A stretch of DNA of 21,586 nucleotides from positions 1 through 21,586 of IMG/VR virus record IMGVR_UViG_3300046001_006440; one strand, 5' to 3'. The notes under the pieces were generated by a model. The model ran no database searches, was not told where the DNA came from, and was given only the letters and a program-made list of their open reading frames with translations. A program made the translations under genes and the position numbers. Positions 1 through 21,586 of the stretch are shown here, piece after piece. The DNA is from a virus. Position 1 is the first letter of the stretch; every line of letters begins with the position of its first letter.

Positions 1-814
1 TTTGATCAGTTCCAAAAACCATATTATCTCCACTTATTGTATTAGTTACTTTAAATACGGCTTCCATTGTATATGGAGCATCGTAAATACCTAGATTGCT
101 AGCTGTCTTAGTAGTATTTATGTAATCATCGGTACCATCAAATACAATTTGAGCATTTGAGGTAAAAGACATATTTGATAAATCTAATGTTGAATTTCCT
201 ACCAATGGTAAAAGTCCTTGTGTTGCTGAACGAGTGCCTGCTACAAATTGAGTAGCATAAGCTTTCTGTTCTACTTGAAGACCATCCCACCATATTACAA
301 CTCCAGATTGAAAAGAATCAGGTCCGTCTAATCTAGCCTGTATTGCTACTACATTCCCGTCTGTAAAAGTTCTAGTATAAGTATATCTAGTCCATTCTGT
401 TGTAAGAGATATTCCTGTAGCATTAAAATCAATAATATTTCCTGAAGAATTTGCCCCAAAGTGAAAGATTGCTCCTGTAGTATTTTGATTAGCTTTTGCC
501 CATACACTTATAGTCCATGTTTGTCCTGAAGCAGCAGCTGCTATATTATTACCAGTACCACCATACGTACTTATATATGGGTCATTTCCGTTACAAACCA
601 TTTTAAGCGGAGTATTACCCACCGGCGATGGTATGGTATCTCGGGACAATGTGACTTGATTTCCTCCATTTACCCAGCCATACAAGTCAGTAGGGTATGT
701 TCCAAAGGCATTAACTGTAGGTTGTCCTTTATAGCTATTTACAGTATCTCCTGTATCATAAGCAAACACCGATCCTGATGTGACTGTTTTTCCGTATCCT
801 TGTGCTACTGCCAT
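1..814 (-). CDS. LamG/carbohydrate-binding-like fibre or adhesin protein, 3' end outside window
   Basis: This frame opens with ATG at 814 and stays open for 271 codons to the window edge, so the C-terminus is missing. The N-terminus (MAVAQGYGKTVTSGSVFAYD) and the segment GTRSATQGLLPLVGNST are shared with the next gene upstream, so the two are paralogues. Residues about 75-195 look like a beta-sandwich carbohydrate-binding module (TWTISVWAKA, WWDGLQVEQKAYATQFVAGT). A LamG/concanavalin-like fold begins near residue 215 with FDGTDDYINT. The start lies one base beyond the stop codon of the upstream gene, so it is translated from the same message. Its likely place is the phage surface as a receptor- or glycan-binding structural protein. 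That role is inferred from the fold and fibre-cluster context; the substrate is unknown. Confidence 0.8.
   Translation of the reverse strand, partial: MAVAQGYGKTVTSGSVFAYDTGDTVNSYKGQPTVNAFGTYPTDLYGWVNGGNQVTLSRDTIPSPVGNTPLKMVCNGNDPYISTYGGTGNNIAAAASGQTWTISVWAKANQNTTGAIFHFGANSSGNIIDFNATGISLTTEWTRYTYTRTFTDGNVVAIQARLDGPDSFQSGVVIWWDGLQVEQKAYATQFVAGTRSATQGLLPLVGNSTLDLSNMSFTSNAQIVFDGTDDYINTTKTASNLGIYDAPYTMEAVFKVTNTISGDNMVFGTDQ
204..235 (-). repeat. 32-bp direct repeat, copy in truncated LamG gene
   Basis: This copy is identical over 32 bp to 1348-1379. It encodes the TRSATQGLLPL segment at the junction between the carbohydrate-binding-like half and the LamG half. Confidence 0.9.
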
Positions 815-815
815 A

Positions 816-1982
816 TTAACTTAAATTAAAACGTGTTTTGTATTGTTGGTAGTTTTGCTTTACTTCCAGTGCTGTTAGTGCTCTGTCATACACTTTACTG
901 ACTGCTATTTTTCCAATCCATCTTTCTCCATCCGATACTCCGTGTGCTCCTATTCTTAAAAAATCCCAATCTGTGATATCTGTACAAGTTGCAGTTATTG
1001 TTTCGGTAACTCCATTTACACAGTAAGTAAGGTTAGTTCCATTATAGGATACAGCAACATAAGACCACTGCCCTGTAGGTACTGTTAACGAGGACACTGA
1101 GCATGGCCAAAAACCTAGTCTACCATCCGGGTATACATACAGTGCATCGTCGGATGCTAAATTACTCTGTACGATTGATTCATACCGACCTGTTGCTGTT
1201 GATCTATATACAACAGCTTCTATTGTAGGAGTATTAAGTGTTGTAGCGGGAAAATTTGTATCTATAAAATCATTCGTACCATCAAATTCTATTTGAGCAT
1301 TTGAGTCAAAAGATACATTTGTTAAATCTATTGTACTATTTCCTACTAATGGTAAAAGTCCTTGTGTTGCTGAACGAGTTCCATAAGCAAATGGAGTAGG
1401 ATGTGATTTTTTCTCCCACTGTAATCCGTTTATGTAAAGCACTCCTGCTGAGTAACTATATCCCCAGCTTGGTCCGTCTACTACAATAGCATTTGAGTAG
1501 TTTTCATTAAACTGTGTTACTGTATAATTGTAGTGCCACTGTCCATCGGCAATGATATCACTTACGTTTGCTAAGATTGTAGTACTATACGGTCTAGACC
1601 AGTCTGGGGTATAGAAGTATCCTACTCCAAATCCTGTATTACCTGCAGGTGCTGTTGTTTTGTACCAGTAACTTGTAGTCCAAACATCTCCACTATTTCC
1701 TGTCCATATTCCTCCGTAATTACTTTCCCATCCATTCCACTGATTTGAGCCTCCTGTTTTTTCAAACTTCCAGGTTTTTGCTCCCTTTACGGGGCCTCTT
1801 TCCGATGTGTTAGATACATCGGTATTTGTGCCACTTACAGTCCAAGGTGTTACTTCACTCCCGCCATTCCACTGGTAGTTAATCGTAGGTTCTCCTTTAT
1901 ACGAATTCTTAACATCACCTGTATCGTAAGCGAATACTAAATTACTTTCTCCTAATGTATTTGGTCCTCCTGCTGTTGGCAT
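816..1982 (-). CDS. LamG-domain fibre/adhesin protein (388 aa)
   Basis: A complete paralogue of the truncated gene downstream. After a short N-terminal tag with FAYDTGDVKNSYKGEPTIN, residues about 70-200 resemble a carbohydrate-binding beta-sandwich (WTTSYWYKTT, QWHYNYTV, LYINGLQWEKKSHPTPFAYGT). Residues about 230-385 carry a LamG-like jelly roll: FDGTNDFIDT, TIEAVVYRS, GQWSYVAVSYNG, LTYCVNGV, then the closing strand WIGKIAVSKVYDRALTALEV and the helix VKQNYQQYKTRF. This ending is typical of phage LamG structural proteins. The start lies one base past the previous stop, with no Shine-Dalgarno. LamG folds bind sugars or proteins, so a role in host-surface contact is likely but inferred. Confidence 0.85.
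   Translation of the reverse strand: MPTAGGPNTLGESNLVFAYDTGDVKNSYKGEPTINYQWNGGSEVTPWTVSGTNTDVSNTSERGPVKGAKTWKFEKTGGSNQWNGWESNYGGIWTGNSGDVWTTSYWYKTTAPAGNTGFGVGYFYTPDWSRPYSTTILANVSDIIADGQWHYNYTVTQFNENYSNAIVVDGPSWGYSYSAGVLYINGLQWEKKSHPTPFAYGTRSATQGLLPLVGNSTIDLTNVSFDSNAQIEFDGTNDFIDTNFPATTLNTPTIEAVVYRSTATGRYESIVQSNLASDDALYVYPDGRLGFWPCSVSSLTVPTGQWSYVAVSYNGTNLTYCVNGVTETITATCTDITDWDFLRIGAHGVSDGERWIGKIAVSKVYDRALTALEVKQNYQQYKTRFNLS
1348..1379 (-). repeat. 32-bp direct repeat, copy in 388-aa LamG gene
   Basis: The partner of 204-235, in the same codon phase within its gene, 1144 bp away. Recombination between the copies would join the first half of this gene in frame to the second half of the downstream paralogue. 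Confidence 0.9.
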
Positions 1983-1983
1983 A

Positions 1984-2682
1984 TTATATAAATCTCGATT
2001 TTAAAGCGTTGTAGTTTTGTAATACTTGAGCTGCTGTTAAAGCTGTTCCTCTATACATGGAAAGAGCTGCTATACTACCATTGTAATATCCTGCCCAGCT
2101 TCCTGCTATTCTGTCTACAGGATTATTATTTCCTGATGTAGAATTGGCAACTGATGCATCTAATACTCCGTCTACATACATATCCATGGTATAGTTTGTA
2201 TAGTTTACCCAAGTTAACATGCGCCAAGCGTTGTTATTTACTGTAGCGTTTCCTAGCTTTTGTGCCCAGTTACTATTTTGATATGTCCAGTATACTATTT
2301 TACCTGCATTGACTCCTAGCATAGAATATACCGGTCCTCCGCTTGAGTTTGATAGAATAGATCCTGCTCCTAAATCATTTACTGTAGTGGAAGTTTTTGT
2401 CCAAACACTAACAGTCCATGCAAGATTCCCATTTCCTAAACTAATGGCATAATTTCCTCCCAGTATTTCTACATAATCATTACTTCCATCAAATGTAAAA
2501 TTTGAAGAAGGAGGTGTATTGTTGAAGGTAGGGTTATTTGTTAACAAACATCCAGGTGCATTTTTAACTAAATTACTCCAAGAAGTTCCACTTCCTGGGT
2601 ATGATTTAGGTTTTACTGCATCTACATAAAATGTTAGCCCTTCTGTAACTCCCGGTATGTCTGGTCCGTACATTAGTCCCAT
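1984..2682 (-). CDS. LamG-domain phage surface protein (232 aa)
   Basis: A single LamG/concanavalin-like domain fills almost the whole protein. The opening block GLTFYVDAVKPKSYPGSGTS and FDGSNDYVEILG is the common start of phage LamG structural proteins. Core strands follow (WTVSVWTKTS, WRMLTWVNYTNYTMDMYVDG) and then the closing segment GSIAALSMYRGTALTAAQVL with the helix LQNYNALKSRF. It lacks the N-terminal tag and carbohydrate-binding-like half of its two downstream neighbours, so it is a shorter relative rather than a recent copy. It sits six bases after the 651-aa fibre gene and one base before the next LamG gene, making a compact fibre/adhesin string. The fold call is good; the target is unknown. 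Confidence 0.83.
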   Translation of the reverse strand: MGLMYGPDIPGVTEGLTFYVDAVKPKSYPGSGTSWSNLVKNAPGCLLTNNPTFNNTPPSSNFTFDGSNDYVEILGGNYAISLGNGNLAWTVSVWTKTSTTVNDLGAGSILSNSSGGPVYSMLGVNAGKIVYWTYQNSNWAQKLGNATVNNNAWRMLTWVNYTNYTMDMYVDGVLDASVANSTSGNNNPVDRIAGSWAGYYNGSIAALSMYRGTALTAAQVLQNYNALKSRFI

Positions 2683-2688
2683 AACTTC

Positions 2689-4644
2689 TTATTTATCAAA
2701 TTCTGTTACCAATTTCTCTATATCTTTTCTTTCAGCAAACACTGTATAGAAGCAGTTTATTTCATTGTCTGATCCTACCGTGATAGTAGTGTCTGTTACC
2801 GTCTCTACCCATAGGTCTTGTCTTTTACCTATTGGTGTTAGGTTTACTGTAATTGTATCTTCATGTACAAGTGCATGCCAGTGGTCTGGAAGTGTAATTG
2901 TATTGTTGTTTGTTAATTTTCCTCTTACGTAAACTGAATGTTCTGGTCCCTCTAATACTCCGTATTGAAGTTTTTTTCCTTCTTTGGTTGGGTGATCAAT
3001 GATGAACGATTTTACAGTTGCTGTAAGTGTTCCACCTATGTTGAAGGTTGCTCCATTCCAAGTTAAGTTTGAATCTGTAGTAGTTGTATTTGTACCGTTA
3101 TTGAATAATACTCGGTTAGTACCCCCTACTACATTAGTTGCTGTAGTAGCTGTTGATGCATTACCCCCAATACTTAAACTAGTAGCTGTACCTGTTAATC
3201 CTGTACCTGCTCCATTAAATAATGATGCTGAAACTAGACCTGCAGTTCTAAAAGAAGAAGCATTAAAAGCTAGCCAAGCATCATTCATTGTCCCCGCAAA
3301 ACCAGAAGTTGCAGTACCAAACCAAAATGAATTTTGACCAAGATTCAACGCACCATTAGTTCCAGTTATTCCAAAACCTGTTCCTATAGAACCTGCTCTA
3401 GTTAAACCATAATAACTATAATTTGAAGCATTAGCTGGTTCAGTAACAGCTGCTGTTCCATAAGGATCAGCTGTAGCACCATTTCCAGCTACATTAAGAG
3501 TTGTACTACTAACACCTGAAGTAGCTGTAACAGATGTAGCTGATATAATTGAGGTTGTTAAGGTATTTGTATTTGGGTTATAGGTTAATCCTGTACTATC
3601 TATTTTTACTTGTTGGGGAGTTAATGTTGATGATCCAAATACCGGATAAAAAGTTGCATTAGTTGAAGTATCATCTGCTACTATTATATTAGTAGCATTA
3701 GTTGCTGTAGTAGCAAACAGTGAACTTGAAGCATTTATAGCTACAGATGCAGATGTGGAGTATGAGGCCGTTCCGAATAAAGAGCCTGTTATACCTTGAG
3801 TTACGTTTAGTGATCCTGTTATTGAATATGAACCACTTAAACTTCTACCATGTTTCCAAACCCCTACTGAGCCTGTTTGTTGATAGGACCAAATATCTCC
3901 ATATTGGTAAGTACCTCTTTCGGCAGATGCTAAATCTCCAAAATCAATTGGTTGGGTTGGGAATACAAAAATTATTCCGCTTGCACCTGGTCCTGCCTTA
4001 ACACATACCCCTACTTGTATTACCTCAAAAGGTGATTGTGGTACTACGTTGGTAAGTACTCCTGCTGATGATGATACAAATAGTAGATCTCCGTCTACAA
4101 AACCATTTGTATTTAAACCTCTTACTAAACCTTGTGTTGTTACGTATCCGATTGAATTAGTTTCAATAGTGTGAGTTGCTAATCCTATAATTTGATTATC
4201 CCCTAATGCACTTCCCGATACTTGTTGGGATTGTGCTCTTACTATAAGTGGAACATCCCCGTGTGAACCTACAAGTCTTACGGCAGTACCATTGGTAATG
4301 GTTGTTCCTTCATTAAATACACGTACCCAACTTTCTTGTCCTACTTGAAGAGTAATGTCGGCTTCTGCGTTGTAAACAGATAAAGCTCCATCTGTATTGT
4401 CCCAAAATACTCTACCTGATTTATAGGCAGGTACTGCTGATCCAGTATTGAAATCAATATAATCAACATTGTTGATTGAACCAGAAATTTGTAAGTTTCT
4501 TGAGTATGATGCTGTTAAAGCTTGAGATGCACTTGTAGCATATGAGGCAGTTCCAAACAAAGAACCTGTTATTATGTTTGTAACTGTAAGTGAGTTTAAT
4601 GCAGCATCAGATCCACTGATGATGACTTTTTTCCATGATGGCAT
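2689..4644 (-). CDS. Large tail fibre-like protein (651 aa)
   Basis: The modular fibre-like protein starts with MPSWKKVIISGS, a tag shared with the 381-aa protein upstream. Residues 25-47 and 285-302 carry low-complexity GTASYxTSAS repeats. Residues about 60-235 form a domain I recall from other phage fibres (GRVFWDNTDGALSV, VGQESWVRVFNEGTTITNGT, GYVTTQGLVRGLNT, GDLLFVSSSAGVLTNV). Residues 300-540 are Thr/Ser/Asn-rich. Residues 545-651 form a conserved-looking C-terminal tip: KSFIIDHPTKEGKKLQYG, LEGPEHSVYVRGKL, ITLPDHWHALVHEDTITVNL. The tip ends near FAERKDIEKLVTEFD, which could act as a maturation or receptor-contact piece. It is the first gene after a candidate promoter with a 71-base leader. 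The exact fibre type cannot be fixed from sequence alone. Confidence 0.82.
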   Translation of the reverse strand: MPSWKKVIISGSDAALNSLTVTNIITGSLFGTASYATSASQALTASYSRNLQISGSINNVDYIDFNTGSAVPAYKSGRVFWDNTDGALSVYNAEADITLQVGQESWVRVFNEGTTITNGTAVRLVGSHGDVPLIVRAQSQQVSGSALGDNQIIGLATHTIETNSIGYVTTQGLVRGLNTNGFVDGDLLFVSSSAGVLTNVVPQSPFEVIQVGVCVKAGPGASGIIFVFPTQPIDFGDLASAERGTYQYGDIWSYQQTGSVGVWKHGRSLSGSYSITGSLNVTQGITGSLFGTASYSTSASVAINASSSLFATTATNATNIIVADDTSTNATFYPVFGSSTLTPQQVKIDSTGLTYNPNTNTLTTSIISATSVTATSGVSSTTLNVAGNGATADPYGTAAVTEPANASNYSYYGLTRAGSIGTGFGITGTNGALNLGQNSFWFGTATSGFAGTMNDAWLAFNASSFRTAGLVSASLFNGAGTGLTGTATSLSIGGNASTATTATNVVGGTNRVLFNNGTNTTTTDSNLTWNGATFNIGGTLTATVKSFIIDHPTKEGKKLQYGVLEGPEHSVYVRGKLTNNNTITLPDHWHALVHEDTITVNLTPIGKRQDLWVETVTDTTITVGSDNEINCFYTVFAERKDIEKLVTEFDK

Positions 4645-5196: not shown

Positions 5197-6342
5197 TTAT
5201 GACCAGATAAAAATATCTTGGTTGGTAGCAATTTTAATGTTACCCATTTTTTGGTAAGCAGCAATATCTGTACTTTCTGCTACATTTAAATCCAATACTG
5301 TTGCAACGAAAGCATCTGGTGCAGCTGATGTAGCTAAACCTGATAATGAACCTGTGAATGCCCATCTAGCTTGTGCTGAATCATATAATAAAGCAAATCC
5401 TGTTCCTCCAGTAGCACTTTGTACTATAATACCACCATCATTAGCTGAAGTTGATCCAGAAGATAATAAGATGAATTTATCAGCTACGTTTAAGTTTGTA
5501 GTGTTGATAGAAGTTGTAGTACCATTAACTGTTAAATCACCAGATATAGTTTGACTACCATTTAATATTAAAGTAGATCCATCAAATGTTAAATTAACTT
5601 CACCATTTATTGTTCCACCACCATTATCAGTTAATACTCTATTATTAGCAGTATTTGTTATTGCAGGTGTAATATTAGATGCTGTTAAAGCATTTGTAGC
5701 AGTAGGAGTATTTAAAGCAAAAGAAGCAGTTAAAGCATAAGATGAACTTATTGCTGATAATGAACTTGATACCGCCATTGAAGACGTTTGAGAGTTCAAT
5801 ACAAAAGCAGTTGAATCTAAACCATCTAATTGATTAGCATTAGCTGCATATAATGAACTTGAAGCATTAATTGCAAAAGATGCACTTAATACTGTCATTG
5901 AAGACGTTTGAGAGTTCAATACAAATGCTGTCGCATGTAAACCATCTAATAAATCAGCATTTGTAGCGAATGAAGCTGTACCTGTAAAGTTAGTTGAAGT
6001 TACATTTGTTAAACCTGCTAAAGAAGTTACTGTAGAACCTAATCCTACAAATGTACTACCAATAGTTGAACCTGATCTTTGTAAACTTTCGGTTGGAATT
6101 GATGATAGACCGAATGTTAAGGTATCAGTTCCAGCATTAGCAGAAATGGTTAAACCTTGTCCTGAGCTTGAAGCAAAGGTTAAGGTTCCTGACATATCGG
6201 CTATTAAATTTGTGCCGTTATATGATGCTGTTGAGAAGGAATTGTACCCTGCAGGTACCTGTGAAGCCGAGATATACCCCGAGTCATTTACTAATTGTGA
6301 TATCGCACTTCCAGATACGACGAGTTTTTTCCAAGTTGCCAT
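5197..6342 (-). CDS. Repeat-containing tail fibre-like protein (381 aa)
   Basis: The N-terminus MATWKKLVVSGSAISQLVND matches the WKKxxxSGS tag of the 651-aa fibre. Residues 132-149 and 172-189 are near-identical 18-residue blocks (LDGLxxTAFVLNSQTSSM) with a 40-residue period. They are flanked by Ser/Ala-rich ASSSLYAAN and SSSYALTASF linkers. Residues about 235-300 hold a domain also hinted at in the 268-aa protein (NRVLTDNGGGTINGEVNLTF) followed by VNGTTTSINTTNLNVADKFI. This is a sequence style I recall from phage fibres. The C-terminus (LNVAESTDIAAYQKMGNIKI) may be a trimerising or tip piece. A candidate promoter lies 27 bases before the ATG. The structural role is well supported by composition and context; the receptor is unknown. 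Confidence 0.78.
   Translation of the reverse strand: MATWKKLVVSGSAISQLVNDSGYISASQVPAGYNSFSTASYNGTNLIADMSGTLTFASSSGQGLTISANAGTDTLTFGLSSIPTESLQRSGSTIGSTFVGLGSTVTSLAGLTNVTSTNFTGTASFATNADLLDGLHATAFVLNSQTSSMTVLSASFAINASSSLYAANANQLDGLDSTAFVLNSQTSSMAVSSSLSAISSSYALTASFALNTPTATNALTASNITPAITNTANNRVLTDNGGGTINGEVNLTFDGSTLILNGSQTISGDLTVNGTTTSINTTNLNVADKFILLSSGSTSANDGGIIVQSATGGTGFALLYDSAQARWAFTGSLSGLATSAAPDAFVATVLDLNVAESTDIAAYQKMGNIKIATNQDIFIWS
5776..5949 (-). repeat. 120-bp-period coding repeat in the 381-aa fibre
   Basis: Two blocks (5896-5949 and 5776-5829) encode LDGLxxTAFVLNSQTSSM and share an uninterrupted run of more than 25 identical bases. The spacing is 120 bp, or 40 residues, so it is a structural fibre repeat with recent DNA-level similarity. 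Confidence 0.85.
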
Positions 6343-20401: not shown

Positions 20402-21586
20402 TTAAAGTAACCACGATATATCTTCCTTTCCTCCAGTTCCATCGTCCATTCTATATGGATTTTCAGCTTGGTTACTAAATGAAAATACACCAGCTGAGGA
20501 TTGATTGTTAGTATGGAAGCTACCTAGTGTAGCACGTGTAAGTTCCATGTTTTGTTGACGGAATCTTAATGCACTGTCTCTTAAAAATAAACCAATGGCT
20601 AAAGCCATTACTAAATCATCATTATAACCACTTTGTGATTGGGCTTTTCCATTTTTCCAAACAAAAGTTCTTAACTCAGTTAATGATCGTTTAGATTGAA
20701 TTATAACAGATTTTTCGTGAATGTACGAAACTAATTTGGATATGGCAAGTGGTCTTGTCTTCATTGATGTAGTAAAACCAGGTACCATACCTTGACCATT
20801 TTCCATTCTTGACATTTGGGATTCATTTGCTCCCATTGTGGTGTCAGCTTTTGAAGAGTAATGTAAATTTCTATAACCTCTTTCTATTAAGTGTTCTAAA
20901 ACACTCCACCCAATATTAGCATTTTCTACTACTAATAAAGCATCATTATATTCTGTTGCTATAGCAAATAATACGTTAGCATAATCTCTTGTTGAAATTT
21001 GTGCTTTATATTCACCTACTTGTTTAGCTTCAGCTACATCAAAAATATGAAATGCAGAGTAATCGGTTCCGTCTCCACGGGCAACGTCGGCTACTATCAT
21101 ATAGTCTTTACTATAGTCAGGTAATTCCCAAAGCCATAAGGCTCCATCTACTCCTCGTTTTTCCATAGGTTCAGTTATAAAACTGGCCTCATAGAAATTA
21201 AGCATATCTGGTTCAATAACTGTATCCCCTGAGGTGCTAAAATCGCAATCACACTCTTGTGCTGCATGTCTTAATCCTAAGATTTCATCTTGAGCATCTC
21301 TCCATACTTGGGTTCGTTCAGGATGAACAGTCCAAGGTAAAGATAGAGGAACAAATTTGTTTTCTTTATTTTGAGCTTTAGAAAAGGATTTATGAAACCA
21401 ATTACCAGTACCATTAGGGGTAGATAATGCTAAACATTGTCCCCCAGTAGCTAAGGTTTGTTGAGCCGAAGCAAAAATATCATCAATACCTTCAATAAAG
21501 GCAGCCTCATCAATAATAAGAAAAGTAACGGCTTCTGAACGACCAGCATCTGCTGTTGCACCTACTGCTTTAATTTGTGATCCGTT
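20402..21586 (-). CDS. 17: Large terminase subunit, T4 gp17-like, 5' end outside window
   Basis: The frame is open to the window edge (395 codons including stop), so the Walker A part is missing. Visible from the N-terminal side are Walker B TFLIIDEAAFI, the coupling motif LALSTPNGTGNWF, the linker CDCDFSTSGDTVI, and the RNase H-like nuclease domain. Nuclease acidic residues appear in MIVADVARGDGTDYSAFHIF (first Asp), LLVVENANIGW (Glu) and GYNDDLVMALAIGLFLRD (last Asp). These parallel T4 gp17 Asp401, Glu458 and Asp542. The enzyme cuts concatemeric DNA and pumps it through the portal. An internal Met at 21205 would lose Walker B and is not the start. The small terminase is not in the window. 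Confidence 0.96.
   Translation of the reverse strand, partial: NGSQIKAVGATADAGRSEAVTFLIIDEAAFIEGIDDIFASAQQTLATGGQCLALSTPNGTGNWFHKSFSKAQNKENKFVPLSLPWTVHPERTQVWRDAQDEILGLRHAAQECDCDFSTSGDTVIEPDMLNFYEASFITEPMEKRGVDGALWLWELPDYSKDYMIVADVARGDGTDYSAFHIFDVAEAKQVGEYKAQISTRDYANVLFAIATEYNDALLVVENANIGWSVLEHLIERGYRNLHYSSKADTTMGANESQMSRMENGQGMVPGFTTSMKTRPLAISKLVSYIHEKSVIIQSKRSLTELRTFVWKNGKAQSQSGYNDDLVMALAIGLFLRDSALRFRQQNMELTRATLGSFHTNNQSSAGVFSFSNQAENPYRMDDGTGGKEDISWLL

Follow-up and report, generated by a model that had tools for sequence, protein, structure and literature searches.

Seams and probable module exchange in the paired LamG adhesin-like genes of a T4-like phage and its relatives

Two adjacent adhesin-like genes at the end of a phage contig share a perfect 32-bp match at the boundary between their CBM-like and LamG parts. 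The initial annotation read this boundary as a module-swapping site, and the locus raises the question of whether modules are exchanged there and, if so, whether the partners are the two neighbouring genes or genes of different phages.

The tandem genes and their shared repeats

The window, i.e., the whole stretch of DNA analysed, is a virus record of 21,586 bases from a T4-like phage, as judged by its major capsid protein Gp23, portal and head protease; the genes for these proteins and the genes of the array all lie on the minus strand. The best capsid match in a phage collection is Flavobacterium phage immuto (56.7-60% amino acid identity), and the gene order head, neck, fibre, LamG is common to both phages. 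The genes of the array and the identical blocks are as follows.

2..814, minus strand: slot-B adhesin-like gene (open reading frame) with tag B, CBM-like module, junction and LamG start
204..235, minus strand: gene B copy of the 32-bp identical block (exact match)
816..1982, minus strand: slot-A adhesin-like gene, 388 residues, with tag A, CBM-like module, junction, LamG and C-terminal block (open reading frame, Laminin_G_3)
1348..1379, minus strand: gene A copy of the 32-bp identical block (exact match)
1984..2682, minus strand: LamG-like gene without CBM-like insert and without the 32-mer (PHROG 24074/8510, alignment layout)
2689..4644, minus strand: fibre-like structural gene upstream of the array (open reading frame, PHROG; aligned to immuto gp052)

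The slot-B gene encodes 271 residues and has lost its 3' end at the contig end; it is the second match of the gene A protein within the window's own record and also has a PHROG match. A Pfam profile search gave no match for the gene at 1984..2682. The depositors of the immuto genome labelled gp050 and gp051 'structural protein'. At 5197-6342 of the window lies a protein with internal repeats (by eye, LDGL.ATAFVLNSQTSSM twice), like fibrous phage proteins. Sixty further loci were found by the neck gene; the eight listed gene by gene carry different genes in the interval from neck to tail sheath, so that the array sits in a variable appendage region. Two of these eight (L047 and L045) have insert-free LamG genes in this interval, and the pattern detected no family gene in the DNA compared for the 60 loci. 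Without family genes and with other gene sets, these relatives are unusable for a vertical comparison of the seams.

The perfect match was borne out at the positions given above. Its copies are spaced by 1144 bases in the same codon phase and each reads TRSATQGLLPL in frame; the arithmetic of the earlier proposal, in which a 1144-bp deletion yields an in-frame hybrid, is therefore right. None of 100 dinucleotide-preserving shuffles of the window shows such a 32-mer repeat. The block sits inside a direct repeat of 152 nt (82% identity, spacing 1144), and a second repeat, 59 nt at 75%, spans the start of both genes. In the junction of 38 codons, genes A and B use the same codon at 27 of 32 synonymous sites, compared with a fraction of 0.47 expected from codon usage (binomial p 1.4e-5), and the 32-bp identity thus goes beyond protein identity and codon usage. 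The bodies of the two genes do not appear clearly alike and seem to lie near the family background, with 33% identity in the CBM-like part and 23% in the LamG part (family-wide pair means of 24.5% and 25.7%, 53 genes). The 32-mer is also present in five other stretches, among which L018, L020 and L021 are copies. A Mu/P1-type invertible tail-fibre segment gains no support, as the shared blocks are direct repeats and not inverted repeats around a variable segment; only four inverted pairs (14-24 nt, 75-86% complementarity) were listed for positions 1-4000 of the window, which stops at the contig end.

Gene A matches Laminin_G_3 over the cut-off (E 6.4e-14, 52.8 bits versus 27.6, residues 234-375), and 46 of the 49 family members in the alignment have a match at E 0.01; for gene B, which is truncated by the contig end, the profile search gave no Laminin_G_3 match. 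CBM_4_9 matches gene B below the cut-off (E 0.035, 14.9 bits against 25.9), is found at E 0.01 in seven of the 49 members and gives no match in gene A. The AlphaFold model of gene A (pLDDT 83, pTM 0.78) aligns with domain 4 of AbnA (5hon_A; Z 18.1, rmsd 2.6, 181 residues aligned, model range 10..379) and with CBM40 (6er3_B; Z 16.8, rmsd 2.4, 157 aligned, range 14..382), where the ranges are the first and last aligned residues only, not contacts. These predicted lectin-like folds suggest that the window's genes may act in host-surface recognition. Foldseek matches to toxin receptor-binding domains and sialidases were taken as a sign of a shared ConA-like fold only, not of function, and the predicted structure of L014:9574 (mean pLDDT 53) was set aside.

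The position of the CBM-like insert was derived from a profile of 10 insert-free LamG proteins, as a multiple alignment with such proteins misplaced the insert. Separate tag and post-junction matches to this profile were obtained for 15 of 73 family genes and are consecutive in the profile in 14 (overlap of at most 8); in L108:7104, residues 2-30 correspond to profile positions 4-32 and residues 193-385 to positions 35-226. The other 58 genes, including the window's two, gave no split match, and in some of them the first match runs across the insert. In the gene A model, tag A has a strand at residues 15-20, and the fold alignments begin at residues 1-14. The best reading of these data is that the CBM-like module appears to be inserted after the first strand of a ConA/LamG fold, an insertion that would explain the joint conservation of tag, junction and C-terminus. 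Each adhesin gene has three seams, i.e., the N-terminal tag, the junction and the C-terminal block, and the seams and modules lie in the window as follows.

122..235, minus strand: junction seam of gene B, 38 codons (86% nucleotide identity, 26/30 synonymous codons identical to immuto gp049)
269..709, minus strand: CBM-like module of gene B (approximate limits, from amino acid identity to relatives)
717..897, minus strand: seam comprising the gene A end, the intergenic bases and tag B (181 bp, 92.3% to immuto; 20690-20870 in the window reverse-complement)
819..920, minus strand: C-terminal seam of gene A (81% nucleotide identity, 22/24 synonymous codons identical to immuto gp050)
1266..1379, minus strand: junction seam of gene A, 38 codons (91% nucleotide identity, 31/34 synonymous codons identical to immuto gp049)
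1413..1877, minus strand: CBM-like module of gene A (approximate limits, from amino acid identity to relatives)
1881..1982, minus strand: tag A (MPTAGGPN..., proposed first LamG strand; slot-A tag class)
2689..3033, minus strand: C-terminal seam of the fibre-like gene (346-column match, 96.5% to immuto)

Module combinations in the family and in close relatives

Family members were picked by pattern, not exhaustively, and immuto gp049, which lies outside the pattern set, was compared separately. Family genes occur in 89 of 115 loci examined and number 132, with many copies of the same contig among them; these represent 75 distinct proteins and, once near-copies are removed, 73 non-redundant genes (IMG/VR contigs). 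The window's 32-bp block forms the centre of a conserved motif, variants of which are present in all 73. Only six of the 73 have the exact TRSATQGLLPL, and GTRS is found in 62. Aligned members (14; 49) have a common order of tag, variable module, junction, variable LamG body and C-terminal block. Six loci came from bacterial genomes, four of them with LamG only. Two small contigs of one Flavobacteriaceae metagenome bin (L180 and L181) gave near full-length matches to a window protein, at 35% and 31%; they may be phage DNA, and they offer a weak hint as to the host range of such phages.

The two modules of these genes occur in mosaic combinations. Among 2628 gene pairs, 46 have the CBM-like module in common and 24 the LamG module (at least 45% identity), and only two pairs have both; 43 pairs are alike in the CBM only (LamG below 35%) and 22 in the LamG only (CBM below 35%). 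The correlation between CBM and LamG identity over all pairs is 0.09. The CBM of gene A is 71-78% identical in amino acids to those of L003, L006, L023 and L005, where the LamG modules are only 21-28% alike, and its LamG module is 72% identical to that of L108:5986. Gene B and L014:9574 have 94% identity in the tag and 95% in the LamG module (cut short by the contig end) compared with 27% in the CBM; the gene B CBM instead matches L031 at 64% and L012:3935 at 46%, with LamG modules at 33% and 26%, respectively. Divergence compared half by half is thus not uniform along these genes, in keeping with the divergent domains around a conserved junction that the initial annotation had described, and junction variants are present at contig level. 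The slot-B protein L014:9574-11040 has 126 extra residues after LamG, absent from the other full-length proteins in the 14-member alignment. Its CBM-like module is 47% identical to that of L172:10149-11288, the two genes being otherwise different.

Closely related contigs show modules replaced in otherwise conserved surroundings. L126 and L136 are 94.3% identical in the 2.0 kb upstream and 99.3% identical in the 6.7 kb downstream, and their family genes agree in the tag (97%), the junction (94%) and the LamG module (100% in amino acids), with CBMs at 19-22%. Identity extends through nearly the whole tag, the CBMs are unrelated, and identity returns about nine codons before GTRS. Among the 47 differing columns downstream, seven fall at the module edge (first 14 columns), five in the junction (columns 25-124) and two in the next 1000, a spread expected if the crossover took place within the junction. 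The neighbouring upstream gene, an insert-free LamG gene (L126:2601-3290), also differs between the two contigs, its body being replaced between conserved start and end. L170 and L172, with backbones 89.6% identical over 6.2 kb and 86.8% over 2 kb, differ by a replacement between tag and junction (tag 88%, CBM 23% in amino acids, part after the junction 92%), and L127 and L144 carry two different modules each but have tag, junction and C-terminal block in common. The match between L014 and L111 (99.0% over 6.1 kb) stops at base 97 of the slot-A gene, beyond which the two contigs differ. Where long matches stop inside family genes, each of the 14 end points listed falls within the tag, the junction or the C-terminal block or at the margin of one of them; they come from eight contig pairs among 52 groups (matches of at least 800 columns and at least 85%, counting only ends more than 20 bases from a gene start and more than 10 from a gene end) and are not 14 independent events, as several pairs share a contig. 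No near-identical relative of the window phage was present among the compared sequences, and for this phage itself no exchange event was observed.

Apparent swaps of this kind could also arise from chimeric metagenome assembly at repeated seams. The comparisons were made on contigs only, assembly can misjoin at repeats, the seams are repeats of ~100 bp or more, and immuto is the only compared sequence that is not a metagenome contig. However, the isolate genome of immuto stands in the same relation to the window, with seams alike and modules not; the proteins of the L014 gene pair are found unchanged in L015, which stems from a different dataset; the L012 array equals the L013 array at 99.95% over 9.8 kb; and the discordance is spread over many contigs. 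We therefore regard misassembly as very unlikely to account for the pattern.

Synonymous sites in the seams and the backbone

A different reading is that the junction reflects a constraint of the protein fold only, such that old paralogues keep their scaffold and exposed modules diverge fast under selection, with no special exchange. The seams are indeed conserved as protein too, and the junction motif, strongly so, seems to match parts of the LamG scaffold. The synonymous sites speak against this reading. In seven backbone genes compared between the window and immuto, 825 of 1479 synonymous codons are identical (56%), whereas five seam blocks of the same phage pair agree at 87-96% (22/23 for tag B; Fisher p 3.7e-4 to 5e-16 against the backbone). 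By this measure the seams seem to be younger than the backbone. Tag A and immuto gp050 could be compared over nine aligned codons only, with 8/8 synonymous codons identical (p 0.0096). A stretch of 41 bases in tag B is exact in immuto and in four other stretches, of which L018 and L020 are copies. The final 111 codons of the fibre-like gene (~96% DNA identity, 98/106 synonymous codons identical to immuto gp052) appear to be another seam, at a C-terminus; 40-codon stretches before them are only 40-65% identical to gp052.

Some backbone stretches do come close to these values. Among overlapping 38-codon backbone windows, a synonymous identity of 0.88 is reached in 1/360 at a protein identity of at least 80% and in 4/691 at a protein identity of at least 70%, and the best DNA identity of a backbone window (0.912) equals that of junction A. 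The seams are thus exceptional together, not each beyond every backbone stretch. Fold constraint alone also leaves the CBMs of gene A and its relatives, so alike where the LamG modules are at background level, and the unrelated CBMs of the nearly identical L126 and L136 without an explanation, and we consider it an improbable account. The wide near-identity of the seams would be explained best by their spread through exchange, and a constraint on the DNA itself may be an alternative.

Taken together, the decoupled halves, the CBM replacements in close genomes and the excess of synonymous identity in the seams over the backbone strongly support the junction as a module-swapping site in relatives of the window phage. 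The part of the original proposal that concerned the window phage itself did not gain the same support, as no exchange was caught there and no deletion hybrid of its two genes was found (see below).

Paired slots, module exchange and known systems

The order of the two genes bears on the partners of the exchange. An MP..GPN gene (slot A) occurs in 24 of 34 distinct array patterns, and in 22 of these the very next gene, 2-9 bases on, is of the MAV.GYG type (slot B); the two exceptions are L029, where the DNA ends, and L159, where the next gene is not classed as B by the pattern. In none of the 34 patterns does B stand directly before A. Seven of the 11 B-type genes without a classed adjacent A gene have an MP-type gene upstream, which in L159 is the classed A gene. 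This constant order indicates that the two genes are a long-standing pair and not a recent duplication, and it agrees better with exchange between phages than with deletions that join neighbouring genes.

Recombination within one genome, in which the tandem genes lose ~1.1 kb and leave a hybrid, draws on the common codon phase and the 32-bp identity, and also on the likeness of junctions at one locus: their mean synonymous identity is 0.646, compared with 0.515 for shuffled locus labels (0/5000, 66 genes), and is uneven among the 23 pairs (0.42-0.88, two below the codon-usage expectation). The hybrid predicted from the window's own genes gave no match in an exact search of contigs that may not include the closest records to the window, and does not occur among the 73 family genes. 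What we did find is one hybrid-like gene, L148:6339, whose CBM matches that of L157:4748 (85%) and whose LamG module matches that of the following gene, L157:6001 (81%); at only ~81-82% DNA similarity, this event would be old. With the A-B order kept in nearly all patterns that have an A gene, such deletions are an unlikely main mode of change.

We consider module exchange at homology seams of paralogous appendage adhesins to be the best explanation of the locus, and hold it with good confidence. The two genes would encode paralogous virion appendage proteins with a ConA/LamG-type lectin domain and an inserted CBM-like domain, and three stretches of the lectin scaffold, near-identical in DNA across phages, would act as short homology seams. 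Related phages would presumably meet in one cell by co-infection, where homologous recombination between seams could replace either the CBM-like or the LamG module, or both together, without loss of the reading frame, and the two-gene A-B arrangement would stay through the exchange. RecA-type matches were found in six of six relatives, five of them over the cut-off, and the match is partial and weak in immuto, so that the recombinase is one that we infer. The probable benefit would be a combinatorial change of surface recognition, presumably through receptor binding and under selection for host range. It is also conceivable, although we advance this tentatively, that aquatic T4-like phages, some of them infecting Flavobacteria, share a DNA-level adaptor standard, in which tag, junction and C-terminal seams stay near-identical among phages whose genomes have diverged and through which any CBM-like or LamG module might enter slot A or B from a common pool, to give a combinatorial two-slot recognition array.

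The natural contigs analysed here show the cut-and-rejoin sites of recognition-type phage proteins at base resolution, with a lectin scaffold split into three homology seams and replaceable modules between them. Phage host-range evolution becomes testable in this setting by counting module combinations in populations, and host prediction by whole-gene similarity may mislead for such proteins.

Adhesins of the T-even type reportedly have conserved motifs that flank hypervariable recognition segments, and exchange at these motifs is said to replace specificity. Here too, conserved motifs flank variable modules, and exchange at the motifs was observed in relatives, though not in the window phage itself; by analogy, specificity might change through exchange in a similar manner. 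The difference is that the motifs here appear to be parts of a ConA/LamG scaffold into which a CBM-like domain is inserted, and that they occur in a tandem of two genes with slot-specific tags. Closest in layout is the region gp049-gp052 of Immutovirus (vB_FspM_immuto), which has the same order of fibre-like gene, LamG genes and tag-B gene and seam blocks with 81-99% DNA identity to the window. It differs in its diverged backbone, in its other modules and in its slot-A gene gp050, which lacks the CBM-like insert.

Among the top matches of a literature search, no title or abstract described this seam family. Mosaic tail fibre genes are known from T4 relatives (PMC2993671), and a survey of domain shuffling in phage proteins reports recent mosaicism in receptor-binding and neck proteins (PMC10684548). 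The latter resembles our case in the recent reshuffling of recognition domains across phages; it reportedly works with protein profiles, whereas the present analysis concerns base-level seams, synonymous conservation and slot order in one family. Accounts of metaviromic islands, or flexible homologous modules, likewise describe near-identical phage cores with interchangeable host-recognition genes, including carbohydrate-binding proteins (PMC3909814, PMC7468147). The likeness lies in the near-identical cores with interchangeable recognition-type genes, and the difference is that here the exchange takes place within genes, module by module, at identified seams. Judged against these sources, adhesin module swapping itself is already known, and the seam family described here is a variant of it.
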